The notes below the pieces were generated by a model that was not told the DNA's origin, did not search any database, and saw nothing but the letters and a program-made list of their open reading frames with translations. 23,189 nt of DNA, from positions 1 to 23,189 of the forward strand of contig MU624804.1 of NCBI GenBank assembly GCA_025349905.2. The letters run 5' to 3'. The stretch comes from Blastocladiella britannica. Taxonomy: Eukaryota > Blastocladiomycota > Blastocladiomycetes > Blastocladiales > Blastocladiaceae. Both the position numbers and the translations under genes were made by a program. Positions 566 to 22,437 of the stretch are shown here, in pieces. Numbering within the stretch: the stretch's first letter is position 1; every line of letters starts with the position of its first letter.

Positions 566-582
566 AATGTGGCCGTGAATGC

Positions 583-588
583 AATAAA
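583..588 (+). terminator. Poly(A) signal AATAAA of the oxidoreductase gene
   Basis: A perfect AATAAA lies 18 nt after the TAA stop of the oxidoreductase fragment. Cleavage 10-30 nt further on would fall at or inside the 3' end of the convergent membrane-protein gene, whose stop codon is at 601-603, so the two transcripts probably overlap. Confidence 0.6.
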
Positions 589-600
589 TATTTTTTCATG

Positions 601-2102
601 TTAACCACGGCGGTCGCTGGTCGTTAATGGGGTCGATGGCGGACTCGTGGCGTCATATGTCGGCGGCGGCGGCTCCAAGAGAGTCGTAACGACCAACGCA
701 GGCCGGAGCGTTTCGGCAGCAGGTGCCAGCCGGTCCGAATCATGGTCTTGGCGATCACCACCCACATCGCTATCATCCTCCGCAGGCGTCTCGTACCGCG
801 GCAACCCCTCCTCGCCCTCGACCACCACCATCCCCAACTCGGCGTCCAGCGCGACCCTTCTCCCGCCCATTCCGTCCGCCTCGGTAGTGATACGCCACCC
901 GCCGCGGCGCACCGGTTCCAGCATTGCCCGCGACGACGGCTGCAGCGTCAGTTCGCGCTGCGCCGACGAAAAAACACCGAACCGGTGCTTGTTGGCGGCC
1001 TTCCACACCCGGAACGTGCGTGGCGCACACAAGATGATAAAGTAGATGCCCGCGGCGATGCCCAGGACTATAAAGTTTGGGATCGCGTTACTGGTGGTTT
1101 TGCCGGTGGACGGGTCGGGTGGGTTGGTTGAGGTCGTATTGGAGGACGGGAGCGTCAGGGATTGCACTATGGTCGGTGGTGTGGCGGATCCGGCGACACA
1201 TATTCCGCCGGTCATGGATGGTGACGAAGATGATGAGGAGAGGCACGCCAGGGATCGGCACTGTGCAGCGTCGGTGCACGCGGCACCGAGCGGGAGTGCC
1301 GCAACAAACCTCCGCGATGCCCGATCGCACGTCACCAGCGACGCAATCGACTGCTGCCCGTCATTGGGACCAGTCAGAATCAAGTAGGGTGGAAGTGGGG
1401 AGTGCTCGGATGCGACAAATGCTGGGAGAGCTTCTTTTGCTGCTGGAGACGATCCAGCAGGAACCGCGAGCACGGCAGAGATTCGTGGGAACGGTGGAGG
1501 TGGTGGAATAGCCAGTGTCCACTTTCGCTGCTGCTGCCCTTGCTGCTGCTGCGAAAATGGCAAGTACGACGACAAGTCGACATCAGGATCGCAAGGGTAG
1601 CCAATGGGAAGTGTCGGGAGACAGATGCCGCCGTCGATCTGGTCCAGCAGCGGATCCGTTGTATTTGCTGCTGACAGGTGCCAATTTGCAAGGGCAGGCC
1701 AGGACAAGGGGACGCAAATGGTGGACGCGGCAGCGACGAACTCGCGCGGGCATGACGAGATGGTGCAATCAAGGAAATCTATCGAAATGGAAGTGAAGTG
1801 AGACGCAGCGCAGCGAAATAAATAGTTGGCCTCGCTTAGACAAGTCTGAAAAAGGACGGACCAGCGGCAGTGCTCGAGCAACCATTTCGGTCCTGGCACT
1901 GGGCAAGGTCGCTTGCGGCCAATGAGGATGGCGGCGCGCACGGTTCCAGGGCGGTCAGGGGCGACGATCCCACGCGAACGCGGCAGGTGCTCGGGACGAC
2001 CATACTTTTTTCATTGCCATCAAGGAACGGAAAGAGGACTGACAGCGCTGCTGCTGCACTTTCTGGCGGCACGGACGAGGACGACGACAAGAGAGCAGGC
2101 AT
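601..2102 (-). CDS. Single-pass membrane protein, cysteine-rich outside, PY-motif cytoplasmic tail; family unknown
   Basis: The main exon runs from about 1845 down to the TAA at 603-601. It encodes a region with many cysteines (for example CTDAAQCRSLAC followed by GGIC), a Ser/Thr/Pro-rich stalk, one hydrophobic span (about nt 1083-1027, FIVLGIAAGIYFIILCA) and a basic then acidic cytoplasmic tail of about 140 residues. The tail holds LPRY and PPTY, both of the (L/P)PxY type that binds WW domains of NEDD4/Rsp5 ubiquitin ligases. An ATG at 2102, in another frame, reads Cys-containing sequence and probably supplies the N-terminus. An intron of 65 nt at 1899-1835 joins the two frames (about 478 residues) and fits the local intron size, but the strong-looking acceptor ending at 1846 does not fit any donor of normal length. 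The signal peptide is weak. Function is not recognised. Confidence 0.5.
1027..1083 (-). other. Transmembrane segment of the PY-tail membrane protein
   Basis: Nineteen mostly hydrophobic residues follow a Pro/Ser/Thr stalk and precede RTFRVWKAANKHR, a positive cluster that places the C-terminal tail in the cytoplasm by the positive-inside rule. Confidence 0.7.
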
Positions 2103-2266
2103 CTTAATTTTGCAAATATACGCGACCGAAAGAGCTCTTAGGCTCTAACTCGAGCGCGCGGTGCGCCGGGTAGCGTTGTGGCCATTGGTAATGCCCATGT
2201 GCGATTGTGGCGCAAAAGAAGCAAAGTCATGGAAAAAGCAGCGATCCACGCCAAAGGGATCGATGT

Positions 2267-5200
2267 CTATTTACGCTGCTGCCGCCGGTCGGTCAGATGC
2301 ACCAGGTACTCGACCCAGTGGTCGATCCACTCGCTCGACCGCGCCTCGGCACTGAGCTCCACCACGGAATGGCCGCTCCCAAACTCGAGTCGTACTGACC
2401 GCGCCGTGGACGCCACGGAGCTACTGGACTGGGCATCGGGCAACTTGCTTCGCACTCGCACGAGTTCCTTTAACGACAGGGCGGTACGGAACCGCGGTTC
2501 TCCCGGTGCCTCGGTCACGACAATCATGCCCTGTTCCGGGACAAGCAGTGCACGGCAGGCGCGGCCCAGCTGCACTTCAAGCACCATGGCCGCTGATGCG
2601 CGCTTGAACGTCACCAGTGGCCACACGGAACTGTCCTTTCCGGGTTCTCGGCTGAGCGATTTTTTGGACACGCCAACCGATTTCGACGTGCCCAGGACAA
2701 GATTTGTCCACCGCAAATTGGCATCCTTGGACGACGTGGAGAAGATGCCGCTCGGCTGGTAGCTACACAGTCCCATCTCTGTACCACCGCCGTTGCCGCC
2801 AACCATTGATGACTCGACTGCTTGCACCGTCGACCGCGCCACGGGCCGCTGAGATCGCAGCCCTACAATGCATATCTGCGCCGTGTACACCAGCGAGCAC
2901 AAACTGTAAGTCAGAACTCGAATGCTGGGCAGGACCACTTCAATGCCGCCAACGGTGATCTAGAAGTGTACTGGCCACTTGCATAAGTCACAATAATGTC
3001 TGGATGATGAAAAAAAATACGTACAGCAGTGGCGGCAAGAACCAGCATGGTATACAACATCCTTAGCGTCGGAATGCGCTGCAACCGTTGAATGGCGCGG
3101 TTGAGCGACGCTTGCACCGCCAGCCACAGATTCAGAGCAATCAGGCCCGCGTTGATGAGCAAAGATGGAGCCAATAGATATCGCCGCTGACCCAAGTCGC
3201 ACGCCGAGTAGTGCCAGGTGTCATGGACTGGAACCACGACTGAACGTGGCGGGCTTGCAATGTACCATAGGAGCATTGCGGCGGCCTGCAGCGAAAACAC
3301 GCCTAACATAAATGACCAAGCAATGGCCACCACGGACCGAGAGACTCGCGCCCCGGACGACGTGACGATAAAGTATGCTTGCAAGTCGCGAATCACCACC
3401 GATGCTAGGATGACCGTGAAGCTCGCGAGCCACAACAAGATCCGGAGCGAGCACGTGGGCGTGGATGCTGGGCCCAGGAACGTCAGGGGCCACAGCGCGA
3501 TGCACAGCCCTCCAGACCACAGACTGGCAGTGATAAATAGCTGCCACAGGCGGCGCGATCCGCATTTGAGGGCGGACCTGGCCATGGGCACCGCCGACGC
3601 AATCAAAATAACCATATTGATGGCCACGACCGTAGTGGCGACCACGCCAGAACTGCTTTCCCAGGCCACCAAGAGGACTGGGCCAAGGACATTGATATGC
3701 AAGATGCTTGCGATGGAGTTGGTCATTTTGGTGAGTGCGTCGTCCACAGACATGGAGCCGGCAAGGGCTTCGTGCACGTTGGTGTAGATTTTCTCGGATA
3801 CGGCCATGTACTGATTTCCAGTCAGCACTGCAGGACGGGAAAACACCCTGGTGTCGGAGACATTACAACTGTCCATCCTGGCGCAAAAAGCTGGATCTGT
3901 GGTGGATTCGTCAATAACAGGATCCCACAAAACACAAGAAAAAGGTGTACCAGAGCGCAACGAAGTGAGTGTCGGGCTCCACCCTTCCTCTTGATACCAC
4001 CACAGCTGATTGTCGCTCGTGGACAAAAATTCGAGGACCCGCACTGCATCGGTCGGACTGGACGAGAAGCGGTTAATCCCCAGATAATTGCCGCCATTGG
4101 TCGAAAATCCACGCTGAGCGACAGTCTCCCCCGGGATCAGCGCCACGGCACCAATCGCTCCGGGTGTATCCACAATCATGGTCTTTGGATTGAACCAGTT
4201 GCGCATAAAGACTGCCCGGCCAGATTTGAAGAGCGCACTCGTTGGATCTTCCATTCCAACCAGTCCGACAAGGGTTGGCGGCATGAGACCGGTGGTCAGC
4301 CACCGACGAAAGCGAGAGAGAATTCCAACCGCAGCACGGCGTTTGGCCGGGTCAAGGGTGGACAGGGTCGGGATGTTTGGGTCTTGCGAATCGCCCTCAA
4401 CTACTGGCCCTGCTCCAGCACTGGCGAATATCTCCATGACATTACACGTCAGCCCCTCGTAAGCGTTGAACTGGCCGAGGAAGCCTGCCATTTCGGTTCC
4501 AGCCGAGCGCTCGCCTGCTAGAATTGTTGCCAACTGGGTTTCCATTTCATCCCACTAGTGTTTTTTTATCCATTGACAATTTGTCATCTTAACCAATTGA
4601 TATGAAATGAGGGAAAAAAAAGCATACGGTAGCAGGTGGTGCGGCAATGTTGTATTTTTGCAACAAGTCATACCTGTAGTACAGGGTGGCAAAGGGCAAC
4701 TTGAAGGGCACAGCCAGGAGTGAGTTGTTGACGACTGCCGCCTGCACCATGCCTTGGTCAAAGCTCTGGATCACTCTTGGATTCATGGCCGTCTCCAGGG
4801 GCAGCAAGAGGTCGGTAAAGACAGAAGGCCAGATCACTACGACATATGGGTTAGGTGCATTGCCTTTTTTGATGATTTTCAAATGCATACCATCGACAAA
4901 TACACTTTTCAACCAGCAGTAAAATTGGAGTATTGGGATGAGGTCAATCAATGGATATGCAAAGCAAAGTGGAGTTCGCACATGTCAAAGTAGGCGCGTC
5001 GTTGCAACATCATGATTTGGAGCATGTCCCCAAGTTCTACATAGACGATCGTGTGAGGACAATGTATCTCCCAGAATGAGCCAAAGGAGTTGAACCAGTG
5101 GATGAGATTTTGATGGACTGGAAAACGACATGTTGATTTCAGTCCTTCAGCTGTTTTCGCTGGACAAAATAAAACAATGTACGGCATTGATGGCCGCAAT

Positions 5201-5478: not shown

Positions 5479-6223
5479 ATGCAGTCCGATGCAACAGTGC
5501 CGTACACGGGCTCCTCGCTCGAAACCCTGAGAACGTCGATGGCCGCATTCACGGCGCCGCGAGACCCGCTCGACACGTCTCCGCCGGCCCCACCGCCGCG
5601 CGAACTCGCGCGATTCATGAGCTTTGCCGGTCTTGGCGCGTTCTGGGGCATGCTTCTGGGCGGTGCGATTGGCGCCCGCACCGCTGGCCACCAGTTCCTG
5701 GCCGAGCACGCACATCATTTGCCAGTGACGGTGCCCGGGTGGTACTTTTACCACAAGCAAAAGAACTATCGCGTGGTATGGGGCGCGGTGACGCGTGGAC
5801 TGCGCGAGGCCGGGCGCCTGGGCACCGTGGTAGCGGTGTTTTCTGCGGTCGAGACTGCTGTCGATGTGGTGGCCGAGCGCGAGTCGCCAGCCAGCAGCGT
5901 GGTGGCCGGGCAGGCCGCAGCTACTGCGTTTGCCATTGCCAGTACGCTCTCGATTCTTGACATGTACCTGGATGACACACTCACGATAAAAAAAACTTAA
6001 AGATCGCCTGCCACGAGCCTCGTTCCGCAAGGCACTGCTGTATGGGACGGTCGCGGGAGCCGTTGTTGGCGGCGTGCAGGAAATCGGATCCTACTTCCTC
6101 GGGATTCCCATCAAGTACGCGCCGCGCGACCAGCTCGAGGCCGCAGCCAAAGTGCTGGCCGGAGAGGGGTCGTCCTCCTCAGCACCATCACCGAGCGGAT
6201 CACTTGGACGCATTCAGCTCTAA
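5479..6223 (+). CDS. Tim17/22/23-superfamily mitochondrial membrane protein, TIMMDC1-like (complex I assembly)
   Basis: Two exons (5479-5941 and 6003-6223; intron 5942-6002, donor GTACGC) encode 227 residues. Hydrophobic, glycine-rich segments lie at about 48-69, 113-131, 139-153 and 165-188. The block GRLGTVVAVFSAVETAVDVV, then SVVAGQAAATAFAIANRLP and LLYGTVAGAVVGG, follows the order of the Tim17-family domain in TIMMDC1 (C3orf1), a membrane-embedded assembly factor of mitochondrial complex I. YFYHKQKNY before the second span sits where TIMMDC1 has its FHxQR-like stretch. The length is shorter than human TIMMDC1 (285 residues). The start could be Met1 or Met21 (5539); the latter still leaves a short N-terminus before the first span. 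Another Tim17-family member cannot be excluded. The unspliced frame ends at 6000 and lacks the last hairpin. Confidence 0.6.
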
Positions 6224-6290: not shown

Positions 6291-7093
6291 TCACTGTGGG
6301 GGACGCGGAGGCATGCCTGTCGGGAATGGGGGCCGGAAGCCCGGCGGCGGCGGCGGCGGCAGCGACATGCCCGGACGCGCACCTGGCATCCCACTGGGCA
6401 GCGCGGGCAGGGGCATGCCGGGGCTGTGAAATACACATCAGATCTTCAGTCAATGCCCACCCAATAATGGAAAAAAAAAAAGGAAAGTAAAGCGTACCGC
6501 CAGCCTGCGGGCATTGGAGGCATTGGGGGAAGCCCAGTGGGAGGACGCATGCCCGGCATGGGCGCAGCCCCACCCATCATACCGGGTCCCATGAGGCCCT
6601 GCGGCGCGCCCATACCAGGCGGCTGGGCCATCATGGCAGGGGCGCCTGCGACCACGGGCATCGGCATCATGGGCATGCCGCGACCGGCCGGTCGAGCAAT
6701 GCCAGCGCCAGCTACGGGCACCAATCCCGGCGGCGGCTTGCGCTTTTCGTCCTTGGGCGCCTGCGGCGGCGCCTCGACCGTGAAGTTGACGATAATGTCG
6801 CCGCGCAGCACCACCAGGCCCAGCACGCGCTTCTCCTCGCGCTCCTTCTTGTCGTTGGCACCCGCGCCCTTGACTTTGATGCGGCGGAACTCTTCGCAGT
6901 CGGCCAGCACCAGGTTCATGTGCCGGTCAAACGCCAGCAGCTGCCCGATCAGAACGCGGCCGTCCGTCAAGTACACGCGCAGCCGGTAATTGAGCAGCTG
7001 GAGCATTTTGCTCGACTTTTCGATGGTCGACTGGCGTGCCCGGCAATAGTGAGTCTTATTTTACGCGTGTACTTGATTGGAAAATCATACCAT
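6291..7093 (-). CDS. SNRPB: Small nuclear ribonucleoprotein-associated protein B (SmB), core spliceosomal Sm protein
   Basis: Three exons encode 222 residues: 7093-7091 (only the ATG), 7030-6498 and 6423-6291. Introns are 7090-7031 (donor GTATGA) and 6497-6424 (donor GTACGC). The product begins [10 protein letters not shown], like the MTVGKSSKM start of animal SmB, which supports the tiny first coding exon. Sm1 is present ([20 protein letters not shown], then [13 protein letters not shown]), with the RNA-contacting Asp/Met/Asn positions. Sm2 is present as [15 protein letters not shown]. From about residue 85 the protein is Pro/Gly/Met-rich with PPGM- and RPP-type repeats, the usual SmB tail; the third exon supplies its end with a polyproline run. 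Length is close to human SmB (231). It joins the heptameric Sm ring on U1, U2, U4 and U5 snRNAs. It converges on the TIMMDC1-like gene with 67 bp between stops. Confidence 0.93.
7031..7090 (-). other. Intron directly after the SmB start codon
   Basis: A 60-nt intron runs from GTATGA to CGCCAG and begins immediately after the ATG at 7093-7091. The next exon starts TCG ACC ATC GAA, giving the conserved Sm B N-terminus. The alternative start, ATG at 7006, would remove the conserved EKSSK residues. Confidence 0.8.
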
Positions 7094-7726: not shown

Positions 7727-10700
7727 ATGAGCTCCTCTCCTCAACGAGCCCCAACAGCTGCACGCACCGCGCCGTCCTCGCCAGCACGGCCCGTGTCTGC
7801 GTTCGATACCTGGGCAACCATGTCACCCTCTCGCCCAGTGGAAAGTAGTAACTTGCCGCCGCTCCCGGGATCAGGACGTCCCGGCTCTGCTACCACGCAC
7901 CGATCCTATCACGCGCCGGATGCTAGCGATATGGACGATTCCTACACCTCTGATGTCGGTTATTCATACCGCACTGGTGCGCGATCGGCCTCTTCCAATC
8001 GCAGCGATCGTAAATACTCTGTGGGAAACCCCTCCTCGGATGGTCATGGGCGCTCGCGATCGGCTGCTCCTGGCGGCCGCAATACGGATGAGGTGCAATT
8101 GACTGGGAGCTACCGGCTCTTGAGGTACCTCTATTTTCTTGATTGGGTAGCAGTCACCTCATTGACATTCATTGTGAATATAGCGCCAACTTTCGCCGCC
8201 AGCGCGTGCGTGAAAAGACATATGATGTGAACCTGGTGTCGACCCACATGCCCCTCTACGAGCCACTGCTCGACGCATACCTTCAGTGCGTACTTGTATT
8301 GTGCGCTTAAAAAAGTGATCCACTAAAAACAAACACTTGGTAGGGATCACTTTAACTCGCCCGTCATCCGGTCTCACCTCATGTCCCTGGGCATCATCGA
8401 TGGTTCTGGGTACATCATTGACGAGCGGAACTTCAAGTACGCCCAACTGGCGCTGGATCGCGCCGAGCAGGCCGCCGATCTGGCCAAGGATGCGCAGCAG
8501 CGCGACATGGACCGGGAAGTCGAAGTGACGCTTCGTCGGGGCCACGCGGCGTCGGCACGCTTGTTGGGAAGTCCGCGCAAGCTTCGAGGCGAGGGCGGCG
8601 ACACGTGGGCCACCACACAAATGAGCTATGCGCCCGAGACGACTGACGGGTCGCAGCCAGCGCAGCAGCAACGACGCAAGTCGCTGGGCGAGATCAGTTC
8701 CGCTGCGTCCTCGGCCCGGTCCCTGACGAGTCAGCAGCAGCAGCAGCAGCAGGCGGTCGATCATCAGTCGGCCGCACAGCCCACTGGTACACTTCCGCCC
8801 GTGTCTCCGCGCCAATCTAGCATTGCTCTCCAAGCGGGCACGAATTTCAATGGCGGAACCACACCAGCGCCAGCATCAACCGCATCAGCCGCTCCACGGC
8901 TCAACCCAACGGGGCTCTCTGCGCGATACAATCTGGGCGGCAGCAGTGCTGCGATGCGGTCCACGCGCGGATCGGCGGCTAATTCTCGCAATGGCTCGAG
9001 CTCGGACGTGTCTCCTCGCCGAGCATCCATCCAGGTATCCTCTAACGTTGATCGGCAAGCGTCTACTAGCGGCGGCGGCAACGCCTCGGTCCGGATCGCA
9101 CACGCTCCACGCCCGCGATCGGCCCTCCACAAGGCCACTGGGCGCGGAGGACCCGGACATAACGGCAGCATCCGGCCCATGACGGCGGGACCGCATTCCA
9201 AGGGAGAGCACACGGGAAGCACCACCTGGGACGATGACCAGCAGGAACTCCTTCGAGACCCGGTGAGTGAGTTCAAGGGCGAGTACGATGACGGATTTGA
9301 GTCCGAGCCCGACAGCGGGAGCGAGACCGAGAGTCATTTTAGCAGCGGCACCAGCACGAGTCAGCAAAAGGCGACGGATACTGCCGCTGATGCTGCCGCT
9401 GATGCTGCCGCCGCTGTTGCACCGACTCTGCCACCGCCTGCTCACGCGGCTGCTCCCACCGAGTCGCCAACCAAGGCCAGAAAATCCAAGGCCAGAAAAT
9501 CCAAGCAAGAGCGCGCTTCTGCATCTCGCCTGACATTTGCGGAGCCGTCCGTCACGCCAGCGTCCATCACCGGATCCGCCGTCACCTTGGGAACTCCCGT
9601 CACTGTCGGAGCCGCGTCCCATGGCGTTTCATCTCCCTCCTTGCTCACCACGTCCACGTCCACTGACGCTGAAACCACCACATCGACCGCGGGTACCACT
9701 ACCACGTCCACCGACGCCGTTACGGCCACGGCCATGCTGCCATGTGCGCCAGCGACCACCGCCGATGCCTCCACTGGCAAGACCGTGTCGCTGGGCCACA
9801 TGGGAGCACAGACATCGGCGCTTGAGCTGCGCGAGAGCATGTCGCAAACCACCTCGCCAAAGCACGTGACGGTGATGGCTCAAACCAGCGCTACCGAGTT
9901 GCGCGAAGGCATGGCGCAAACCAGCACCAGCAACCTCGTCGGATCGGGGGTTCAGACGTCCGCGGCAAATGCGTTTTCCACTCGCACAGTCAGCGCCGGC
10001 GTGGAGCCCATTCCTACCGGCCCTGCTGCCGGTGGTAGTGCTGTAGCCGCTGCGCTTGCGCCGCCGCATACACCCACAAAGGAGCAGACCCGGCAGTCGT
10101 CCTCTCCAGATGTTTTTGGAGACATGAGCTCTCAAGTGTATGTCCTCATATTTTTTTCATTTAGGGAAAGGAAAAGATCTCATACCTTGTGAAAAATGTG
10201 AACAGGCTCAAACTGCATGAAGCAAAGCTGTCCGAGATCGCGCAGTCCCTGTGCAACCAGGAGCACCCAGTTCCAGCCAGCGCGCTGCACGAGACGCGCC
10301 AAAAGACTTCGTCCCTGTTGCGCGACATTCAAGGAACCCCGGGCCACTCGCGCCACCCGGTCTCGCGTGCGATCCTGGCCGAGACGTACTTGCTCTCGGC
10401 CCGCGCCGCGTTCGGGCTCGGCGATATGAGCGCGACCGAGTCCGCCACGCTCTCGGCCATGCATTATGCGGTGGATGCGGCTGGATCCGGCGCTCTTCTT
10501 CGCGATATCGTGGAATTCCAGCACTTGGTCATGGAGTCGGTTGCTCGCAACTCGGCTGTAGCGGCAGCGGCAGTGGTGGCGGAGCGAAACGCGTCCGCCG
10601 TGACGGCTGTTCGGGAGGCACCACCCGTCGCGGCGGCTGCTCCGAGGCCGAAATCAGCGATCGTTTCGGCCATTGCCGACCATATCGTGCCTCCACGCAT

Positions 10701-13700
10701 GGCCACTGCGCTCTCGCCGGCAGAGAAGATGCTCGTCGGTTACATTGCCACGCTCGGCGGCGATATTCCGGATGTCTTGACTCAGCTTGAGTCGACTATT
10801 AGCGCTCGTCAGCAGCAGCATCTTGAGCAGCAGCAACGGGTGACGCCAACGAGCCACGGCGCCGCGATCGACAAGGAGCTGCCCAAGGCGCCTGAATCAG
10901 ATGCACCCAAAATGCGCCGCCCTCGCTCGTCCGAAACGATTACGTTTATTCAGCCTGCCGGCACCACCTCACCGTATGCGCAACACGCAGCGCTCATCAA
11001 GCATGGCTCGGGGTCCAAATCGCAGCTGTTGGCGGCCAAGCCCCAGTCGAGCTCGAGTGCCTCGCTTCGCACAAGCTCTGGCGCCCTCGGGAGCGGGGCT
11101 GCGCTCGGTGCCACTACCGGCGGCTCCAAACACAGCCTTGCCTCCTCGTCGCGCAAGTCCAGCACCGCGAGCATTCACCGCCCGGGCAGCCACCATGGCT
11201 CGCACAAAAAATTGTCCAGCGCCATTGTCGGCGGATCAACAGCGTCCATCCAGTCGACATTCAATACCTCGCAAATCATTCAGCAAGGGTCGATTTTGTC
11301 CGCATCCCCAGCGATCGAGTCTGTTCCTGTTATTGCACCTGCTGCTACATCAACTCCAGCGATCACCACGGCGGCAGCAGCAAACACGACATCAGTAACA
11401 GCCACAGACGGCCCGCATGCGCACTTGTCTGAGCTCACTACCGTCCAACTGTCGGCCTCGACCGATTCCTGGGCAGCCTCTTCAGTCGGAGAGACTCTCG
11501 GGTCAGCAGTCAGCAACGGCACTCTCCTCGCAACCGAGTTGGTGGACACGGCCATGGCCGGCGCCTTGTTTGAGCTCGAACTGGAAGACACTCGCATTCA
11601 AAACGATGAATTCGAAAAGCAAGGGGCAGCGTCAGCACCGGCTCTCTTGGCGCCGACCACACATTCGGCTACTGCTCTCTCAGCGCATGCCAGCACCACA
11701 ATGTTGGTGCAGCCAACAGAGGTTGTTGCAGCAGTGCCGGCCACCGATGCATTTGGCTCGAGCGGCGGCCTGCTTCTCAGTGCTTCAAGCGCAACGCAAA
11801 TCACGAGCGTTGACCAGCAGCAGCAGCAGGCAGAAAGTGCCGTGCTCAACCGCCCCAGCTTTACCGAGTACCTACCATATGCCCCAGCGGTGCCGCCTTC
11901 CGTCCATGCCAGCCACTCTGCGCTAGGTGGCGCGACGTCAGCCCACCCGAGTCATTCTGCATTGAGCGAACCGCACCACGCAGGAGCGTTCACAGCTGTT
12001 GGAGCAGTGGCGGCGATGGGTGCTGTTGGTGCAGCGCTGTTGATTTCGACCCAGCACCAGATGATGCCAGAGCCAGCTCAGTTTACATTTGCTGGCCCAC
12101 TGCCCATGATGAGTGCTCAGGAACCGAGTATGCCCCTCCCTGCGATCCCTGCGCCGGTTCCTTACCCTGAGCTGCCGCAGATGCCGGCCGAGCAGCAGCA
12201 ACATTCATCTGCGCCGATCTTTCCGCAAACAGAGTCCACGTTCCCAGTTTTGCCAGCGCCCGTTCCTTTCCCCGAGCTGCCCCCTGCTCCTGTCGCATAC
12301 TCGCGCAGTGTCCATGGCTCACACCGTGCGCTGGACCAAGTGGATGCGCGCAGTCAGCCGACCATGAACCATTTCAGCGATATTGCACACGCCGTCCCGC
12401 TTCCACCGTCCGCGGCCGTGTCTCAGCTCATGTCCCGACACGGAAGCGCGCAAGTTCTTGCGTCTTCAGCGAGTCGCGAGATCCTTTCTGCCAACGCAAA
12501 CGATACTGGTCGGGATGCTGCTGCGGCTCCTCAAGCTCCGCAGCAGGCACCGCACGAGATTGCGCAGGTGACATCGCATGTGGCTTCCCCGGCGCACGTC
12601 TCGCAGCATAGCCTCCAAGAACTCCGCGCGTCGACGCACGAACTCGCCCACCCGACGACGATCGCAACACACGATATTGCATTGCCAGCTTCAGTCGCGG
12701 CCTCTCAATTGCTCGTTTCGCAGCATGAGCTGAGCGGCAGCGCCGACGTCCACAACCAGCACCCGCACCACCTCTCGGCGGCGAACTTGCCACATCAGCA
12801 CACTGGCACGTCGGTGTCGGTGCACCACACGACGACTTTGCGCGACCAATGCAATGGCGGATCAGCCATTCACCTTGGCCCATCGCCGCACGAGATTGCT
12901 CTTCCAGCCTCGGTCATGGCCTCTCAGGTTCTGGCAGTCGACTACGCGCCGGTTGCTTCACCAGGGCCGGACGCAAACAGGGACATGTTGTCGTCCCACC
13001 CTCAGCTTGCAGTTGCGCCGCACGAGATTGCGCTCCCGGCATCGACCATGGCCTCGCAGCTCCTGAATTTCTCGGATGGTGCAGCGATGGCGTCGCACCA
13101 TGGCTCTCGGGCACAGCTCCACACGCTAGATCCCCACGCCGTAGCCTTGCCTGCCTCTGTCATGGCGTCCCAGGTGCTGTCCATGCCAGAGATCGAGCAT
13201 GACAGCAGCTCCCACGACCATCACCAACTATTGTCCCACCCGCACCACATTGCGCTACCTGCGTCTGTGGCGGCATCGCAATTTTTCCCAGCGCCAGAGC
13301 CCTCAACCACCAACGCATATCACGGGCATGGGCATCTGGGTGACCACCATCACAGCCACTCGACGCACCGTGACATTGAAACCACGGACCCGCACGGAAT
13401 TGCCCTCCCAGCTTCGGTCATGGCATCGCAGGTTCTTACCCAACGGCAGTCGCCGCCCCCGCCCTCTGGCCGCCTGGAAGCTCACCAGATTGCGCTTCCT
13501 GTATCCGTGGCAGCATCGCAAGTGTTGGCGCCGTCGAACCATGCCTCTCGTTCGCAACTGATTAGTGAGGCCGACCCCCATGATATCGCACTCCCGCCGT
13601 CGTTCATTGCATCCCGGGTGTTGTCGTCCCAGACAAATGTGTCGCGCATTGAGCCGCACCATATTGCACTCCCCGCATCCACCATGGCGTCGCAAGTCTT

Positions 13701-16700
13701 GAACTCGTCCAGCGGCAGCTCGGCGGAAGGTGTGCAGCAGCATCCTCCGCAGCGCGCTGTGTCTGCCCACAATTTGCACCAGCAGCCTGCAACACAGCTG
13801 ACAAGCGGCAGTGCACGTGCTTCGAGTCACTCGACCTTAAGTGTGGCCGCATCCGCAGCTACCACTGGAGGCGCTTCAGTGGTGGCGCTCAATGTGCCAC
13901 TGCCGGCGTCCGTAGTAGGTTCGGTCGTCCTCGTCAAATCGGCCAGCGTCGCTTCTGTGATTGTGGCGACTGACGTTCATATCGGGGGTACTCCAGCGCG
14001 ACAGCAGGCCACGTCCATGCGGGACTTGGGCTCAAGTGACCACTTTGCGGCCCACATGGTCCCTTTGCCCGTGTCGGTTGCCGGCTCGATGACTTTGTCG
14101 GTGGGACCGGTGGTCGACCATCAACCTGCGACACTCCAAGTGAATCTAGCGGCGCTCCCGCTCCCGGCTTCCGTAGCGGCCTCGACCGTCCTGCTCGCTG
14201 ACGCTCCTCCAGCACACGAGTCGCAAAAGACCATGTCAACGTCCCGCTCAGCAGACACGCAGTCGTCGGCTTCACCTGGAGGCGACAGCGAGAGCTTCTT
14301 TGTTGCCCTCAAGGGCGATAACGGCCAAGTGGACCCGAGCATTATTCCGCTTCCAATGTCTGCGGCCGTATCTCGCTCGCTGGCCAATTCGACCGAAAAC
14401 TTGCACACCAAGTCGTCCTCGGCGGGGGCGCTTGGCGCTCACTTGGTTCCGCTCCCGGCCTCGGTTGCTGCGTCACTCGCGTATTTGCCGCCTGCGTCCT
14501 CGCAATCGCTTGCGCCGGCACCGGCGTTAGACCCGCACGGTATTGCGTTGCCACAGTCGACCATGGCGTCACTGGCCAACCTCGGCTCATCCACCTCGGT
14601 CGCTGAACCTCCACAGCGGAGGCACATATCCGAGTCTGACCTGCTTGTTCGTCCCCCATCGGCGCCTCAAGCGTCCTCGACAGCAACGGCTGCTCCACAT
14701 TCGCTTGGCGAGTCCAGCAATACCGCGGCAGTGCTGGCACTGCTCACCTCTCGCACAGAACAGACGTCCAACCCGTACTTGGTTGACCCGTATGCCATTG
14801 CTCTGCCTCACTCCGTGATAGGGTCCCAGTCGCTGTTTACTTCGGCGGCCCCTCTCATGGCTGAAACGAGAGACTTGCCTGTAACCACAAATGTGGAGGA
14901 AGAAGACGATATGCACCTGGTCGCTCAAGCCATCCCTCTCCCACCGTCTACAGCGGCATCTCAAATCTTAAACAGCAGTGTCATTGATGTCACTGCGCAG
15001 TCTGCCGACCAGGTGCACGAGGTTGATGCCAGCTCTATCCCGCTTCCTCACTCTGTCGCCGGATCCCAAATGCTTGTCCATGACCAAGGGTACCATACTT
15101 TCCAAACCGTCGACCCGACTGCGGCCTCGCTTTCACGTTCCATCGCTGGCTCTCATGTCTTGGCCAAAAACGTGTCGAGCGCGCAACAACATTCTCATGA
15201 CGCGTTGAGGCTGGACGCGTCCACTGTTCCGCTTCCGGCATCCGTCGCTGGCTCGCAGCTCTTGTCCTCTCACCATGGCTCAATGGCTCTCGATGCTGCC
15301 CGGTCCATGCCGCCTTCTGCGGAGATCCAAGAGCAACAAGCTGTGGACCCGACGCGTGTTGCTCATCCTGCGTCAGTTGCTGCATCAAGCACCTTTATTT
15401 TCCAACAACCACAAACCGATTACCTCGACAGCGAGCAGGCGGCTGGTATCCCGCTTCCTCGCTCTGTCGCAGCGTCGCAGACCCTTTATCATGCCAGCAA
15501 CTCGCACCTTCATCAGTCGCACCATGAGTCATACCTTGGTGTGGATCCGGGACAGGTCCCTCTCCCAGTGTCCGTCGCGTCGTCGCAATTGCTTTTCTCG
15601 GGGCAGCAGCCGCAGCACGACCAACAACAGCGCCAGGAAACGGCGGCAACGACGAGCTCACGTCTAGCCTCGCGTGCAGCGTCCAAGTCACAGCTCGCGC
15701 CTGAGCCGCATGCCATTCCGCTGCCTCTTTCGGTGGCTGCGTCGCGCCAACTCGCCTCAGCAGCCACTATTGACTTGGCGGCGGTTGACCACACCCAAAT
15801 CCCGCTGCCCGCATCGGTCGCTGCGTCGCAGGTCCTGTTTGTCGAGCCAGCCACCACACGCTCGATTCCCATTGAGCCCACCACCGTGCACCCAAGTAGC
15901 ACCGAGGCGCCGCCATCGCATCAGCAACACGACCTGACGATCGTGTCTGCGATCCCGCTCCCGGCATCGACTGCGGCATCCTTGCAAGCGCTCAACCACC
16001 ATGACGACGGCAGTTCAGACGTGGACCTTGACGCGGCGCGCGCGATGCCACTTCCGGCCTCGGTCGCAGTCTCATGCCAGCTTCTCTGTGAACCAGTATC
16101 GGCCCTCACATTTGTCACTTCCGACCCCCTCAGCCATGGCCAGTCGTCGGCTGATGTGCACGCAAGTCCTCCATCGACTCGGGGATACGACGACGAAACT
16201 GCGGCTGCCGCCACTTCGCTGCCGTTGTCCGTCGCCGCTTCGCAGACCCTGTTTTCGCCGCTTTTGCAATCGACTACGACGACGCGTGCCGTGGACATTG
16301 GTTTCGGCGTCGCACCGCCAACGAAAGCAGCGTCAAACTCGATGCTGGCGCCGGAATCACTCCCACTGCCGCAATCCGTTGCCGCGTCACAAGTCCTCGC
16401 GGCCCACAACTTGAACGATGCACTCTCCGTGGCCTCCGCTGCTCCTCTTCCGGCATCCGTCGCGAGCTCGCAATTGCTTTTCTCTCAAAACCGTAGTTTG
16501 GGCGACTTGAATGGGGGTCGTTTTGGTGGTGACACATTAGCGGGTTCCATTTTAGAGCCGCACCACCTCGTCCCGCTTCCGCTCTCGGCGGGGCCCTCTG
16601 TCGACCTCATGTACGCCAGCAGTGACACTGCATTCATTCCAACCGCTGCTGCGGCGCCTCAGTCGCCAGTACTGAAACAGGGCTCGAGCCAGCACTTTGC

Positions 16701-17796
16701 CGCGCTGGTCGCTCTGCCGGCGTCCGTGGCGGCTTCGCAAACACTTGCTTCGGCATCGTCACTGTCGGCGTCACTGTCGATGGCACCGGAGCGGGCAGTG
16801 ACTCGAGAGCTCCCAGGTCAATTCGTCCAAGGTCGGGACAGCGACGACTTTTTGCAAGGGTACGCGGCCGGAATTGAGCTGCCTGCATCCGTTGCTGGCT
16901 CCCGGACTCTGCTGTCGCATGCCACGAGCGTGTCGTCCGTGTACGGAAATGTCGCGCACGGGGCAGAACGGTCGATTACGGCCCCCAGGGACCTGAGTAT
17001 GGTACCCAGCGAGCGCAGCTTGGACGCGGCCCACATACCACTCCCAGTCTCGGTCGCGGCCTCGGCACTGGTTCTCGGCAGCTCTGAGAGTGTGTCATCC
17101 ATGGATGCGACGCAGGTCCCGCTGCCGGCGTCGGTTGCAGGCTCGCTTGCCACGCTATTGCCAGCAACATCATTGGCGTCAATGGTACCGACGCGGCCAC
17201 CGGGCGGGAGCGTGTCGCCATCGCGGCCAGGATCAGCGAGCAAGTCGTCGCCGCGCGCCAAGGGCGTGAGCAAGGAGAACGCGTCGAGTCGTACTGTCAG
17301 CATGACGAATGGATCCGAGGCAGTGACGCGGCACGTCAAGGGCGAGTCCATGGAGTCGCTGATTTCCGCCGCACGCATGGCGCCACTGCCTGCTTCTGCG
17401 ATGCCGTCGCTGCTGGCCCTCGACGTCCGCGATGCACACCAAGTCCCACTCCCCGCTTCGATCGCGTCCAGCTTGCAGAACCTGGGTGGTCCCGAGCGGC
17501 CGGAAGGTGCGGGCGAGTCACGTCCAGGATCCGCGGGACGCAAGAACAAATCGAGTGTCCGCCACCCAACTCACTCAACATTGGGCAGCCGCAGTGGATC
17601 CGCTGCCAGTTTGCGCGGATCCCAGCGCCAGCTCGCGTCGTCGTCCTCCAAGGCGGCGGGCGGCCAGTACAAGCTTGCATCGTCCTCATCTGGCGCGGGG
17701 ACCGTCCCGAAGCGCGAATCGGACAAGCACGTGTCGTCGACATCGCGCACACCCTCCGTTGCAAATCTGGCGGCCGAGTCCAAGGTGAACCAATAA
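7727..17796 (+). CDS. Giant ERICH3-like, probably cilium-associated protein with an array of about 38 Leu-Pro-x-Ser motifs
   Basis: Four exons (7727-8124, 8184-8285, 8344-10135, 10165-17796) give about 3,307 residues. Introns are 8125-8183, 8286-8343 and a third that ends at 10164 and starts at 10136 (29 nt) or 10112 (53 nt). Residues 1-130 are Ser/Pro/Arg-rich. Residues about 155-205 (EPLLDAYLQDHFNSPVIRSH, then GIIDGSGYIIDE and FKYAQL) resemble the N-terminus of human ERICH3 (LMDKHL, YFNN, RIRRHL, GLI..SG.I), a cilium-associated protein. An acidic patch near 9285-9340 (EYDDGFESEPDSGSETES) recalls its acidic stretch. Residues 765-1000 look helical. Residues about 1506-3206 hold the motif array; the C-terminus is basic and Ser-rich. 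Most of the protein is low-complexity and probably disordered. The start at 7727 is preferred over the in-frame ATG at 7613. The ERICH3 link rests on about 50 residues. Confidence 0.75.
8729..8751 (+). repeat. CAG-type polyglutamine tract
   Basis: About seven consecutive glutamine codons, nearly all CAG, in exon 3 of the giant gene. It is a coding microsatellite; shorter Q runs occur at about 10810-10840, 11815-11830 and 12190-12200. Confidence 0.7.
9800..9970 (+). repeat. Short internal repeat with core QTSA(T/L)ELRE in the giant protein
   Basis: Four diverged copies of a unit with core AQTSA-LELRE-SMSQT occur in a row: QTSALELRESMSQT, QTSATELREGMAQT, QTSTSNL and QTSAANAF. It lies in exon 3, before the main motif array, and is a separate repeat type. 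Confidence 0.65.
10136..10164 (+). other. Third intron of the giant gene, unusually short (29 nt) or 53 nt with an alternative donor
   Basis: The upstream frame runs into a stop after 10180 and the large downstream frame opens at the acceptor TTTAG (10160-10164). Donors at 10136 (GTGTAT) and 10112 (GTTTTT) are both phase 0, so both keep the frame. The first gives a 29-nt intron, half the size of any other in the window. The second gives a normal 53 nt and drops eight residues. Confidence 0.55.
12388..17490 (+). repeat. Protein-level array of about 38 copies of the motif [IV]-[AP]-L-P-x-S-[VT]-[AM]-[AG]-S-Q-x-L
   Basis: Within the last exon of the giant gene, a 15-17-residue motif recurs about every 45 residues over 1,700 residues. 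Examples are HDIALPASVAASQLL, HEIALPASVMASQVL, IPLPHSVAGSQML and VPLPASIASSLQNL. Many copies begin with PH or DPH. The spacers differ in length and are low-complexity (His, Ser, Gln, Ala). The Leu-Pro and following Ser are nearly invariant. Copies use different synonymous codons, so these are old duplications kept by selection on the protein, not a recent DNA tandem repeat. The pattern suggests a repeated short binding motif, perhaps a helix capped by Pro and Ser, but no partner is known. Confidence 0.85.
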
Positions 17797-17844: not shown

Positions 17845-18956
17845 TTAGGCAGTCTTGGCCTTGGCGGCGTCTACGAGCGCTTGCACCTGCTTCTCGATCG
17901 CGTCAATCTTCTTGGCAATCTCGGCGATCTGAGCGGCCTCGCCAGCGTTGTTGTTGCCAGCGTTGTTGTTGCCAGCCTTCTTTTGCTTCTTCTTGTCGTT
18001 AGCGGCCTTCTTGTCATCAGCGGCCTTCTTGTCATCAGCGGCCTTCTTCTTGTCATCAGCGGCCTTCTTCTTGTCATCAGCGGCCTTCTTCTCCTCCTCG
18101 GCCTTCTTCTTGTCGTCGGCAGCCTTGTTGTCGTCGGTCGACTTCTTGCCGTCCGTGTTCTTCTTGTATGCGCCGGCCTTCTTGGCGGCATCTTCGGCAG
18201 CCTTCTTCTTCTCGTCCGCGGCCTTCTTGGCATCGGCGGCCTTCTTCTCGTCCGCGGCCTTCTTCTCGTCCGCGGCTTTCTTGGCGTCAGCAGCCTTCTT
18301 GGCGTCAGCAGCCTTCTTGGCGGCGCTAGCATCGTCGGTCGACTTCTTGGCCGGGGGAGTCTCCTTCTTTGCCGGCGGTGCGGCAATGGGGGCAGCGCCG
18401 CCGCCGTTGGTGGACACGACGGTGCACGACCCGAAACCCGCGGGCTGCGTGACCTGCAAGATGCACCCTGCGGCCGCGCACTTGAGGTCAGCGGGCACCG
18501 CAAACGAGAACTGGAACTGCTGGTTGCGCACGCCCGAAATGCGGCCATTGGTTCCTGGAACCTGGTCCACAACATTGGCCACCACCGAGAACGACTTGCC
18601 GGTGCCGGTCGGGTCAATTTTGACGGCAAGCGGGCCTGCGCCATCGCCGTTGGTGATCTTGTATTTGATTTTTTCAAGTCAGGAGTTTGGTCTCACTAAA
18701 TCAAAAATGAAGGAAAATAATTCACCTGCCAAGTGAACGTGGCCTGCTTGCCGGGAACAAGGGCGGTGACAGGCTTGCCGGCAACTGAGATGGCACCGTT
18801 GCCGACGGCGCAGGGGTCGTTGGCACTGACGCGCTTATCGGTGGGCACAAACGCGGCCGGGTTCACAAGGTGGCCGTGGCCGAGCGCCTCCTGGGCGGTC
18901 ATGGCAAGGACGGCGACCAGCGCGGTGAGGGAGAGGAGGTTGGTGGGGTAGATCAT
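17845..18956 (-). CDS. Egh16-like secreted protein with a Lys/Ala/Asp-rich repeat tail
   Basis: Two exons (18956-18726 and 18657-17845; intron 18725-18658, donor GTGAAT) encode 347 residues. A signal peptide ends near residue 26, leaving HGHLVNPAAF as a possible mature N-terminus. Residues about 75-165 (NGDGAGPLAVKIDPTGTG, then VPGTNGRISG, LKCAAAGC and QPAGFGSC) match the Egh16/Magas1 family of secreted fungal proteins. An N-terminal His followed by Gly-His also recalls LPMO-type copper proteins, but no later His exists that could complete a histidine brace, so that activity is not supported. Residues about 175-300 are tandem KKAADDKKK-type repeats likely to form a charged helix, and residues 310-347 a coiled coil (IAEIAKKIDAIEKQVQALV). 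This tail is unusual for the family. It converges on the giant gene, with 48 bp between stops. Confidence 0.65.
17983..18345 (-). repeat. Coding tandem repeat of 18- and 21-nt units (Lys-Lys-Ala-Ala-Asp)
   Basis: On the plus strand the unit GCGGCCTTCTTGTCATCA and a variant with one more CTT recur almost perfectly between about 17998 and 18090, then diverge (CTCCTC, GTCCGC, GGCGTC variants) up to about 18345. In protein these are KKAADD, KKKAADD, KKAADE and KKAADA blocks. The near-identical stretch suggests recent expansion, so length probably varies between strains. Confidence 0.85.
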
Positions 18957-19184: not shown

Positions 19185-20034
19185 TTAAGCGCGGGCCACC
19201 GGCTCAACGCACTGCTCACCGGCGGCAGCGCCAAACACGGCCGACCAGAACACGCACTGCTTCTCGACCGTGGTGGCAACGGTGGCAGCGTTGTACTCCT
19301 GGGCCTGGTCAGCGCCGTGACGGTCGCTAGCGTGGTCCTGGGCGACGCGGCACGGACCGACAGCCTTGGCCAGACCAATGTGCGCCACCTTCTTGTCGGC
19401 GATGACGGCGTTGTGCTCGCTCGAGTCGATCCACAGCAGGAACGTCATGGCCGCCGAGTCAAACTTGGGCGCCATCCCCGCGGCAACAATCTCGGCCACC
19501 TCAGTGTACGCGCCCTCCTTGGTCGGATATCCGGCCGCGGCAACACGGTCAAACGCCTTCTTGCCGTCAGTGCCAGTGTGCGTCGCCGCGTGCAGGTTCT
19601 TGGCCATGTCGTCGGCCTGCGCCTGTGCGGCCTTGCTGAGCTTGGCGTTGATGCACACCGAGCTCAGGTTGTTGTAACCGCGGTGTGCGTTCACCAGCGC
19701 AACCATGCGGCGCTGGTACGCCGGGAGGGCCGAGTTGGCGTTGGCAAGGGTCACATCGGGGCGGCCCAGCTGACCGCTCTCGGCCGAGCCAGTCGAGGGA
19801 GCGGGCTTGGCGGGGGTCACGGGGGCAGCGGGAGCCGGGGCCACAGGGGCAACCGGAGCCGGCGTGGCGATGGGGGTCGCGGTCGACGTAGTGGTCTTGG
19901 CAAAGTTGGCGTTCACGGGCGGCGCGGGCTTGGCCGCATCAGCGACCGGCGCGGGCTTGTCAGCGACGGGAGCGGGCTTGGGAGCCGGGGTCACCACGGG
20001 AGCCGGCTTGGGCGCGGGCGTGGCAGTGGGCTTG

Positions 20035-20066
<32 letters not shown>

Positions 20067-20704
20067 GGCAGGGGCAGCCGAACCGCCAGAGCATGCCTCG
20101 GACGGGTTCTTGCCAAAGTCCTGCGTCCAGTACGCGCAGTTACCGGCCCAGCCGGGGCACTTGCCGCTGGCCTGGGCGATTCCAATGTGGGTAAAGTCGC
20201 CGAGGAGGTTGGCGCGGTGACCGGCCGAGTTCTCCCACGAGGTCATGGACGGGCCAGCAGCAGAGTAGCCGGGCAGGGAACCGACCGCGACGTTTTCTAT
20301 ACATTATTTTGTCAATACAAAACAAAAACAAAACAAAAAACAAACAAAAAACGAACCAGCAGCGCCCTGGTACGAGTAACCGGCAGCCTTGATGCGACCC
20401 CAGGGGTCCAGTGGATCGCTGATACCGCTGTGGGTCATCTGGCCGTTGCGGGCCTGATCGTTCGAGTGGCCCTGGGCGGCGTTGACGAGCTTGGTAGACA
20501 GGCAGAGGGCAGCGCGACCGTTTTGTTTGCGGACTTTTGAATTTGTCAGATTTTATCAGATTCAACAACAAAAAAATAGCTCCAAAACGAGAAAAACGCA
20601 CAGGAGTTGACAATGGCCAGCTGATCGATCATGTATTGTTCCAGCGCGAGCACCTGCGTGGCCGTAGCGGCGAGGACGGCGAGGACGATAAGCAAGTTTG
20701 CCAT
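19185..20704 (-). CDS. Secreted protein with two CAP (SCP/PR-1) domains, minus-strand copy
   Basis: Three exons (20704-20602, 20533-20357, 20296-19185) encode 463 residues; introns are 20601-20534 and 20356-20297. Splicing joins VNS to FRKQNGRAALC and GAA to ENVAVG. A signal peptide covers residues 1-21. CAP domain 1 (about 24-165) has the full putative tetrad: His in MTHSG, Glu in AENVA, Glu in WENS and His in SAGHRANLL, ending in CAYWTQDFG, a YkwD-like arrangement. A Pro/Ala linker (about 163-284) follows, then CAP domain 2 (about 285-455) with HTG, AEIVA and WIDSSEHNAV; here the Glu after Trp is Ile-Asp, so the second tetrad is altered. CAP proteins are extracellular and often bind lipids or sterols; the ligand here is unknown. 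Its nearest relative is the divergent gene at 21071. Confidence 0.85.
20030..20075 (-). repeat. 6-nt coding repeat in the Pro/Ala linker
   Basis: On the plus strand GGAGCC is repeated about six times, encoding alternating Ala-Pro on the minus strand. It forms part of the extended linker between the two CAP domains. Confidence 0.7.
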
Positions 20705-21070: not shown

Positions 21071-22437
21071 ATGCTCCTCGTTGTCGCCCTTGCCCTCCTC
21101 GCTGTCACAGCGTCGGCCAACGAAGTCGCGGTCGGCAACGGTGGCGCCGCATCGAACTCCCCCGCGCCCGCCGTGACCGTCTCGTCGCTGATTATCACGG
21201 CGCTGGACCAGGTGAACGCGTTCCGTGCCCGCAACGGCCGCCGCGCGCTGTGCCTCGAGCCGCGCCTCATCCAGGCGTCGCAGGCGCACTCGGCCGACAT
21301 GGCAGCCCACCGGTTCTTGGAGCACAATGGATCGAACGGCCAGTCGCCGTTTGCGCGCATGTCGGCCCTCGGGTACGGGTACACGGCCGCGGCCGAGAAC
21401 ATTGCCTACGGCAGCTACGGGTCGTACCAGACGATCGAGGGCCCGCTCAATGCCTGGGAGCACTCGTCGGGTCATCTTGCCAACCTGCTCGGCGACTACA
21501 CGCAGATGGGTATCGGCATGGCCTCGGGCGCGTGCCCCGGCGGTGGCGGTACTTGCTACTACTGGACTCAGGTACTTGGCTTTTTGAAAAAAAAATCATG
21601 TGACTGACACAATCCCAAAAATAGGACTTTGGCAAGTCGTCGCTCCCGTGCCTGAACCAGAACACGTACACGCCACCCGCGGCCGATTCCAAGAAGCAGG
21701 AGACGCCCGTGTACTCGTCCTCAACCCCGGCCAAGCCCACGTCATCGGCTGCTGCCCCCAAGCCGGCGCCAGCCACCCCCGCGCCTGCCCCCGCTCCGTA
21801 CGTGAGCCCGTCGCCCGTTGCCCCGGCCCCCGCCGCGACTCCCTCGACCCCCGTCAACCCGATCGACGCGTACGACTACGGCATGCTGTCGACCCCCAAC
21901 GTGGTGGTTCCCCCGACCGCGGCCGGCGGCGCGAGCGTGCCGGCATACCAGGCCGAGTTTCTGACGCTGGTGAACGCGCACCGCCGCCACCACAATGCGT
22001 CGCGCGTGTGCCTGTCGACGTCGCTGATTGTGGCGTCGCAGCGCCAGGCCAACGACACCGCGCAGCGTCTGCGGGCCATGACGCATGTGGGCTCGGACGG
22101 ATCGTCGGCGCGCGACCGCATGCTGCAGTCGGGCTTCCCGGCGGACTGCGGTAAGTCGGCCGAGATCATTGGCGCCGGCGCGAACGCTACGTTCGTGGAC
22201 CCGGCGCAGGCGGTGCTCCTGTGGCTCGACTCGGACAACGGCCACGACAATGTCATGTGCGATGCCGCTTGGACTCACCTTGGTCTTGGCCGCGCGCTCG
22301 GCGACTGCCCTGTTGACCCCAAGTCGCCGCAGCAGGCGGCTTACACTACCTCACCCATCACTGGCACTCCCCAGTGCTACTACTACGTGGCGACGTGGGC
22401 TCGCGCCGACAAGGCCGAGTGCATCAAGCTCGAGTAA
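21071..22437 (+). CDS. Secreted protein with two CAP (SCP/PR-1) domains, plus-strand copy
   Basis: Two exons (21071-21571 and 21625-22437; intron 21572-21624) encode 437 residues. A signal peptide covers residues 1-17 (cut after TASA). CAP domain 1 (about 38-172) has His in FLEHNG, Glu in AAENIAYG, Glu in AWEHS and His in SGHLANLLGDY, then CYYWTQ and, across the intron, DFGKS. A Pro/Ala/Ser linker (about 173-270) is followed by CAP domain 2 (about 275-430) with MTHVG, AEIIGAG and WLDSDNGHDN; as in the sister gene, the Glu next to Trp is lost. Six or more cysteines in the second half suggest disulfides. Domain order and the altered second domain are shared with the gene at 19185-20704, so they are paralogs, yet their introns are at different places. 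Confidence 0.87.

Follow-up and report, generated by a model that had tools for sequence, protein, structure and literature searches.

Scaffold proteins with many copies of a short linear motif are already known as such, and two described systems resemble other parts of the gene reported here. ERICH3 (C1orf173), a vertebrate ciliary protein, is reported along the ciliary axoneme and in the proteome of airway motile cilia, its loss leads to shorter cilia, and DUF4590 is named as its sole domain (passages of PMC6848114). In ASCIZ and Nup159, TQT-like sites bind dimers of LC8, and two of the sites in Drosophila ASCIZ begin 11 residues apart (passages of PMC5963919). The gene described here lies in a window of 23,189 nucleotides from Blastocladiella britannica (contig MU624804.1 of assembly GCA_025349905.2). 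Its product, identified by a protein database search as BC828DRAFT_118323, repeats a short peptide with the core Leu-Pro-x-Ser (LPxS) 38 times. The taxonomy record places B. britannica in the Blastocladiomycota, which make flagellated zoospores. The phylum is listed among the flagellated fungi in passages of PMC13358043.

The number and conservation of the LPxS peptides suggest that the protein is a docking chain. The reading that we favor, with a probability of roughly 0.58, is that a protein family of at least four species of Blastocladiomycota joins an ERICH3-like head to a low-complexity LPxS tail (29 to 58 copies, and six in a second gene), and that this tail acts as a multivalent chain of docking sites for a single partner, with the zoospore flagellum as the probable location. 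The initial annotation had placed about 38 diverged copies at 12388..17490; 38 were found, spanning 12382-17484, with 0-1 in shuffles. The first copy occupies 12382-12435 and the last 17431-17484, and the consensus is best given as [DE]-P-x-x-[IV]-[PA]-L-P-x-S-[VI]-A-[AG]-S-x-x-L. Thirty-six copies fit the strict pattern L-P-x-S-[VTAFI]-[AMVGI]-[AGSVP]-S, which occurs 0.03 times on average (maximum 1) in 1000 composition shuffles of the array region, and two are degenerate (LSRS, with L at 15130, and HPAS, with H at 15364). An array search of the protein database found relatives in three further species, all of them Blastocladiomycota: Sorochytrium milnesiophthora (P0002, 2117 aa), Allomyces arbusculus (P0003, 3887 aa), and A. 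javanicus (P0004, 4040 aa). The family is thus present in four species of three genera. A position-specific matrix built from the four species gives 38 window copies at each of four cut-offs. At cut-off 8 it finds 38 copies in Blastocladiella, 29 in Sorochytrium, 53 in A. arbusculus, and 58 in A. javanicus, whereas 20 shuffles per protein give 0.0 on average.

The pattern of substitution suggests that selection acts on each peptide. Among all 178 copies from the four species, P1 is kept in 175, S3 in 176, S7 in 174, and L0 in 166, while V or I occupies position -2 in 139 and position +4 in 138, and L occupies position +10 in 117. Masking the scored position during calling leaves the near-invariant core unchanged, with the matrix itself built from the same copies. 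To speak of identical binding sites, as was done at first, is too strong, since only L0, P1, S3, and S7 are near invariant. Between the 38 window copies the proportion of synonymous differences (pS) is 0.71 and that of nonsynonymous differences (pN) is 0.165 over six core positions, and the values are 0.72 and 0.32 over all 13. The synonymous sites are saturated, confirming that synonymous codons differ between copies, and pN lies well below pS. Core serines are encoded by TCN in 75 of 76 cases, compared to 132 of 182 for serines in the array spacers (P 8e-8). The TCN and AGY codons are bridged by single changes only via non-serine codons, so the TCN bias is consistent with a single founder copy and continued selection for serine.

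Comparison of orthologues points in the same direction. Fifty-one of the 53 copies in A. arbusculus have a collinear counterpart in A. javanicus, and the cores of these two proteins are 83% identical while the spacers are 67% identical. Proline is kept at 79 of 86 core positions versus 114 of 157 spacer positions, serine at 107 of 115 versus 206 of 270, and leucine at 89 of 103 versus 121 of 160. The LPxS peptide is therefore better conserved than its flanks between orthologues, in this one pair of species. Cores are kept in all three relatives, and the proposal of selection on each peptide, made in the initial annotation, is supported; neither a ratio of nonsynonymous to synonymous change (dN/dS) near 1 between copies, as judged by pN and pS of the window copies, nor orthologues that keep spacers and lose cores were seen.

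The layout of the array is that of motifs at uneven intervals. The mean spacing in Blastocladiella is 45.5 residues (range 21-94), in line with the earlier figure of about 45, and it is 45.5-51.1 residues across the four species. The recurrence is not clearly more regular than random placement: the coefficient of variation is 0.40 in Blastocladiella compared to 0.51 (P 0.054, the lowest value of the four species), and it is within the random range in all four. This irregular spacing suits beads on a flexible string. By composition, order-promoting residues make up 15-19% of the spacers and 27-33% of the cores. Tandem Repeats Finder detected no DNA array in 12388-17490. Searches of the PDB with the consensus unit, the head module, and the likely helical domain gave no meaningful match.

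A second gene shows that the copy number of the family is free to vary. It lies on contig C515 of B. britannica (546-4291, minus strand) and shares the head module, with six LPxS copies that lie in a single open frame. It also matches part of the likely helical domain, weakly (E 0.021), and no xQT ladder was seen by eye in its linker. This gene was found via the head module, and a protein search of the same genome with the array matched only the window gene. The DNA pattern for LPxSVAxS has 25 matches in 15.26 Mb of the genome, of which 20 are in the window gene, one is on C515, and four are elsewhere; the reversed-pattern control has five. No third array was seen with this pattern, which catches 20 of the 38 window-gene copies and one of the six second-gene copies. 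Since it catches about half of the copies, it would reveal another large array and could miss a small one. The database search with the array scored the 7980 candidates sharing most words with it, about 1,400-4,450 aa long, so shorter or less similar carriers may exist outside the phylum. Beside the second gene, C515:5081-6500 (minus strand) reads by eye as a GAF plus nucleotide cyclase gene.

The start of the protein includes two exons that had been missed. The best gene model is on the plus strand at 7727-17796 and has four exons encoding 3294 aa. The NCBI model (P0001, 3115 residues) is identical to it from residue 180 onward and lacks exons 1 and 2 (7727-8285), which hold the start of the conserved head module. 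These exons are supported because the joined head matches the Sorochytrium and Allomyces proteins across the splice sites. A 29-base intron at the junction of exons 3 and 4 was dropped as improbable, and the intron of the NCBI model (10138-10205) is better. The initial annotation described the array and was without exons 1 and 2, the LC8-type ladder, the second short element, and the second gene.

The head module appears related to the N-terminus of ERICH3. The reference for this comparison is a presumed sequence of the human ERICH3 N-terminus, confirmed by no database record. The head module is 28% identical to it, with E 1e-8, in one comparison, and hhalign gives a probability of 95% over 46 columns with 33% identity. 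Pairwise scores of the four fungal heads lie 11-14 standard deviations above shuffles. The module Y-x-x-L-x-D-x-x-L ... I-R-x-H-L-x-x-x-G-[LIV]-I-x-x-x-G-x-I, read from this presumed sequence as that of the ERICH3 family, is present. AlphaFold2 predicts helices at 2-24, 34-41, 44-52, and 65-109 of the P0002 head with modest confidence (mean pLDDT 67). Literature combining ERICH3 and fungi, as far as its passages go, includes nothing about the fungal protein. Among 175 candidates the Sorochytrium head matched only itself, in a search whose length window left out the Allomyces proteins. A search with a mixed alignment (7990 candidates) gave no match at E 0.01; its length window left out even the known relatives, so it is uninformative on ERICH3 in other lineages. 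Searches of the B. britannica genome for the BBS1, DUF4590, and SPMAP1 families were silent along with their controls, and they show no absence.

Membership of the head in the SPMAP1-like family (PF15075, sperm microtubule-associated protein 1) was considered and rejected. This family ranks first, though weakly, for the Sorochytrium head (E 0.0028) and for the presumed ERICH3 head (E 0.019), and the two matches overlap on the profile. The score is 18.5 bits compared to the Pfam cut-off of 27, and unrelated families score nearly equally (E 0.0073 and 0.021). The Blastocladiella and Allomyces heads have no match to PF15075.

Two further elements resemble short binding sites. An xQT ladder is located between the head module and the likely helical domain. 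In Blastocladiella the lag-12 autocorrelation of Q reaches four of four possible pairs, a value found in 0 of 5000 shuffles, for a stretch picked by eye. Each Allomyces protein has 12 xQT units (aligned by eye), and again 0 of 5000 shuffles reach the lag-12 autocorrelation of the stretches, likewise picked by eye; by density the Allomyces clusters, with 11 units in 170 residues, are above all of 1000 shuffles. Few of the units read exactly TQT. Judged by sequence, Blastocladiella and Allomyces have several TQT-like anchors about 11-15 residues apart, as expected of a multisite LC8 client, and the B. britannica genome has a piece of an LC8-type dynein light chain gene on contig C297. The other element is S[HRKN]xxL. 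Outside the cores it occurs 18 times in the whole Blastocladiella protein versus 3.9 in shuffles, and 23 versus 3.7 and 26 versus 3.6 times in the Allomyces proteins; Sorochytrium has seven versus 2.5, which is inside the shuffle range. Within the array, 7 of 11 elements in Blastocladiella, 11 of 18 and 12 of 22 in Allomyces, and 0 of 4 in Sorochytrium lie 11-15 residues upstream of a core. This placement suggests that, in two of the three genera, the docking unit may have two parts. A Gly/Ala-rich hydrophobic stretch (AGAFTAVGAVAAMGAVGAALLIS) is found ahead of the array at 11977-12050, and similar stretches were seen by eye inside the Allomyces arrays.

A mechanism can be proposed in which the array gathers many molecules of one partner. 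The head module would place the chain in the flagellum or axoneme, and the spacers are probably flexible, judging by their composition and irregular spacing. Each LPxS peptide would occupy an identical pocket on a single receptor, anchored by the leucine, the proline, and the two small serines. LC8 dimers may zip the xQT ladder, producing two parallel chains with doubled valency, and the copy number would set how many partners are gathered per scaffold. A broader proposal is more tentative, and we consider it possible rather than probable: LPxS may be a new class of docking motif that is recognized in zoosporic fungi by a dedicated flagellar receptor, the motif may be reserved to one gene family, and Blastocladiomycota may tune the valency of an LC8-braced scaffold by copy number, from six in the short paralogue to 58 in A. 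javanicus.

Several results weigh against the docking chain or parts of it. DUF4590 (PF15257) was not found by Pfam scans that covered the window in its three coding frames as well as P0002 and P0003 (P0004 was left out), so the protein is classed only as having an ERICH3-like head; the earlier description as a cilium-type protein is supported by this head module. The 1204 residues preceding the array are 86% identical between the two Allomyces species, as conserved as the cores, which therefore stand out only relative to the spacers. Because calling relied on the conserved pattern itself, ascertainment accounts for part of the apparent constraint, and the Allomyces comparison escapes this only partly. 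The two Allomyces species are closely related, so the 178 copies are not independent. Copies 1-3 of the second gene fit the full core and the last three are decayed, with S7 or V4 lost. A helix in the motif is unsupported (conservation periodicity P about 0.2; hydrophobic moment P 0.95). As for the ladder, the Blastocladiella xQT cluster is not above shuffles by density (five in 60 residues, reached by 21% of shuffles), and Sorochytrium has no xQT cluster.

Other explanations of the array seem less able to account for its features. If the LPxS peptides bound each other by small-xxx-small packing of Ser and Ala, they could form a homotypic gel or filament matrix with no separate receptor. The sequence S3-x-x-x-S7, with Ala or Gly predominating at 5 and 6, V at 4, and L at 10, is suited to such packing, as are the very high copy number and the layout of stickers and spacers. 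However, what is conserved looks like a specific peptide and not hydrophobicity in general, an amphipathic helix is not evident, and the three intact copies of the second gene are few for a self-assembling matrix, making this unlikely. It is also quite unlikely that each copy binds one subunit of tubulin or an axonemal polymer, in the manner of SAXO or MAP repeats. The ciliary-type head and an array of about 1,400-2,800 residues would be consistent with this, and even the shortest spacing of 21-24 residues could span to an adjacent subunit, but the regular spacing expected of lattice repeats is found in none of the four species, and the spacers lack basic character (net charge -0.04 to -0.07 per residue).

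The serines could instead be serial kinase sites with GSK3-like spacing, and the number phosphorylated would then be counted as a switch, as in the control of flagellum length. Together with P1, S3 and S7 show the strongest constraint of all residues, and their spacing fits the consensus S-x-x-x-pS. Kinases commonly accept threonine, yet it is present at S3 or S7 in only 2 of 356 core positions, and conservation extends to L0 and P1 and, less strictly, to V4 and L10, although such a site does not need them; a phosphorylation switch is thus improbable. Descent might explain the similarity of the copies if a low-complexity tail had grown by unequal exchange and the copies had little function. 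In all four species, adjacent copies resemble each other more than distant ones do (Mantel r -0.13 to -0.24, weakest in Sorochytrium with P 0.04), suggesting that copies were added by local duplication and then kept. Sorochytrium spacers have an ASQ element 16-26 residues past a core in 13 of 13 cases, and the conservation of the Allomyces pre-array part would also agree with descent. The codon and orthologue evidence nevertheless disfavors this explanation: peptides are kept while synonymous sites are saturated, serines are locked in TCN codons, Allomyces cores exceed spacers, and the region has no tandem array at the DNA level. As a full account of the array it is very improbable.

Features of the gene and its protein are given in the table. 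Those outside the array include an acidic element and a likely helical domain, the latter with no Pfam family above the cut-off.

Table. Coordinates of the LPxS gene and of its protein elements in the window.
Feature	Positions	Strand	Description and basis
Exon 1	7727..8124	+	ATG at 7727; basic, Ser/Pro-rich leader; open frame, GT/AG intron 8125-8183, and joined-head alignment with P0002-P0004; not in NCBI model P0001
Exon 2	8184..8285	+	First part of head module (KTYDVNLVSTHMPLYEPLLDAYLQ); homology to Sorochytrium and Allomyces proteins; GT/AG intron 8286-8343
ERICH3-like N-terminal head module	8215..8539	+	Spans intron 8286-8343; 50% identical to Sorochytrium P0002
Exon 3	8344..10137	+	Remaining head module, linker, acidic DPVSEF element, xQT ladder; P0001 starts within this exon
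Acidic element DPVSEFKGEYDDGFESEPDSGSE	9257..9325	+	DPVxEF start common to P0002-P0004
xQT ladder (LC8-type)	9791..9970	+	Five units exactly 12 residues apart; lag-12 autocorrelation of Q
Exon 4	10206..17796	+	Likely helical domain, Ser-rich linker, LPxS array, C-terminus; intron 10138-10205 shared with NCBI model P0001
Conserved domain, likely helical (KLHEAKLSEI... to GGDIPDVLTQ)	10210..10785	+	Aligned with P0002-P0004; 25% identical to P0002
LPxS array, 38 units of 18 residues	12382..17484	+	Starts 12382, 12664, 12883, 13015, 13129, 13237, 13387, 13477, 13573, 13651, 13882, 14047, 14143, 14332, 14434, 14530, 14785, 14920, 15025, 15112, 15214, 15346, 15436, 15544, 15703, 15787, 15940, 16033, 16201, 16348, 16429, 16558, 16696, 16861, 17023, 17104, 17368, 17431
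Seven S[HRKN]xxL elements 11-15 residues ahead of an LPxS core	12994..16347	+	Starts 12994, 13105, 13546, 14767, 15193, 15682, 16333 (derived by hand from residue numbers); placement control P 0.001
Degenerate copy 20 (DPTAASLSRSIAGSHVLA)	15112..15165	+	Pattern and matrix calling
Degenerate copy 22 (DPTRVAHPASVAASSTFI)	15346..15399	+	Pattern and matrix calling

The neighboring genes are of varied types. The tail-to-tail neighbor at 17845-18585 (minus strand) has a Lys/Ala/Asp repeat (KKAADAKKAADEKK) and no Pfam family. Beyond it are secreted-protein domains of the CAP/SCP type (Pfam CAP) on both strands, at 19185-20246 (minus), 21071-21607 (plus), and 21709-22437 (plus). Upstream are a class C GPCR-like gene (2911-4545, minus) and a Tim17-like gene (5479-6000, plus), both below the cut-off, and a gene for an LSM domain protein (6446-7006, minus). 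No tRNA was detected in the window, nor did any Rfam family reach the gathering threshold there.

A protein of this kind may have been overlooked in surveys of flagellar proteins. For a 2026 atlas of the fungal flagellum, fungal proteomes were mapped with a reference set of 394 flagellar proteins, and ERICH3 is not mentioned in its main text (PMC13358043). A long, low-complexity, lineage-specific scaffold is likely to escape such a reference-based approach. If the docking reading is correct, the short, repeated, and sharply defined peptide points to a receptor that a single synthetic peptide, paired with its Ser/Ala variant, could serve to isolate, and the family would show how species tune the number of copies of a docking peptide.

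Compared to known systems, the gene shares separate features with each of several. With ERICH3 it has in common the head module, on the presumed reference sequence, and a large size; the fungal proteins differ in having no detected DUF4590, while no LPxS array is mentioned for ERICH3 in passages of PMC6848114. LC8-ladder clients such as ASCIZ/ATMIN and Nup159 likewise have tandem xQT units, here 12 residues apart, in a low-complexity stretch. This likeness in sequence concerns the upstream ladder rather than the LPxS array, and it does not extend to Sorochytrium. The sortase signal LPxTG shares only the Leu-Pro-x letters, since LPxS is internal, repeated, and eukaryotic, has Ser rather than Thr-Gly, and is without a terminal anchor. 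Four strings of the LPxS peptide had no occurrence in the 5.39 million papers searched, and we know of no motif class that fits it. It is in this peptide that the protein differs from the known short-linear-motif scaffolds; like them, it bears a short peptide in numerous degenerate copies along a low-complexity chain.

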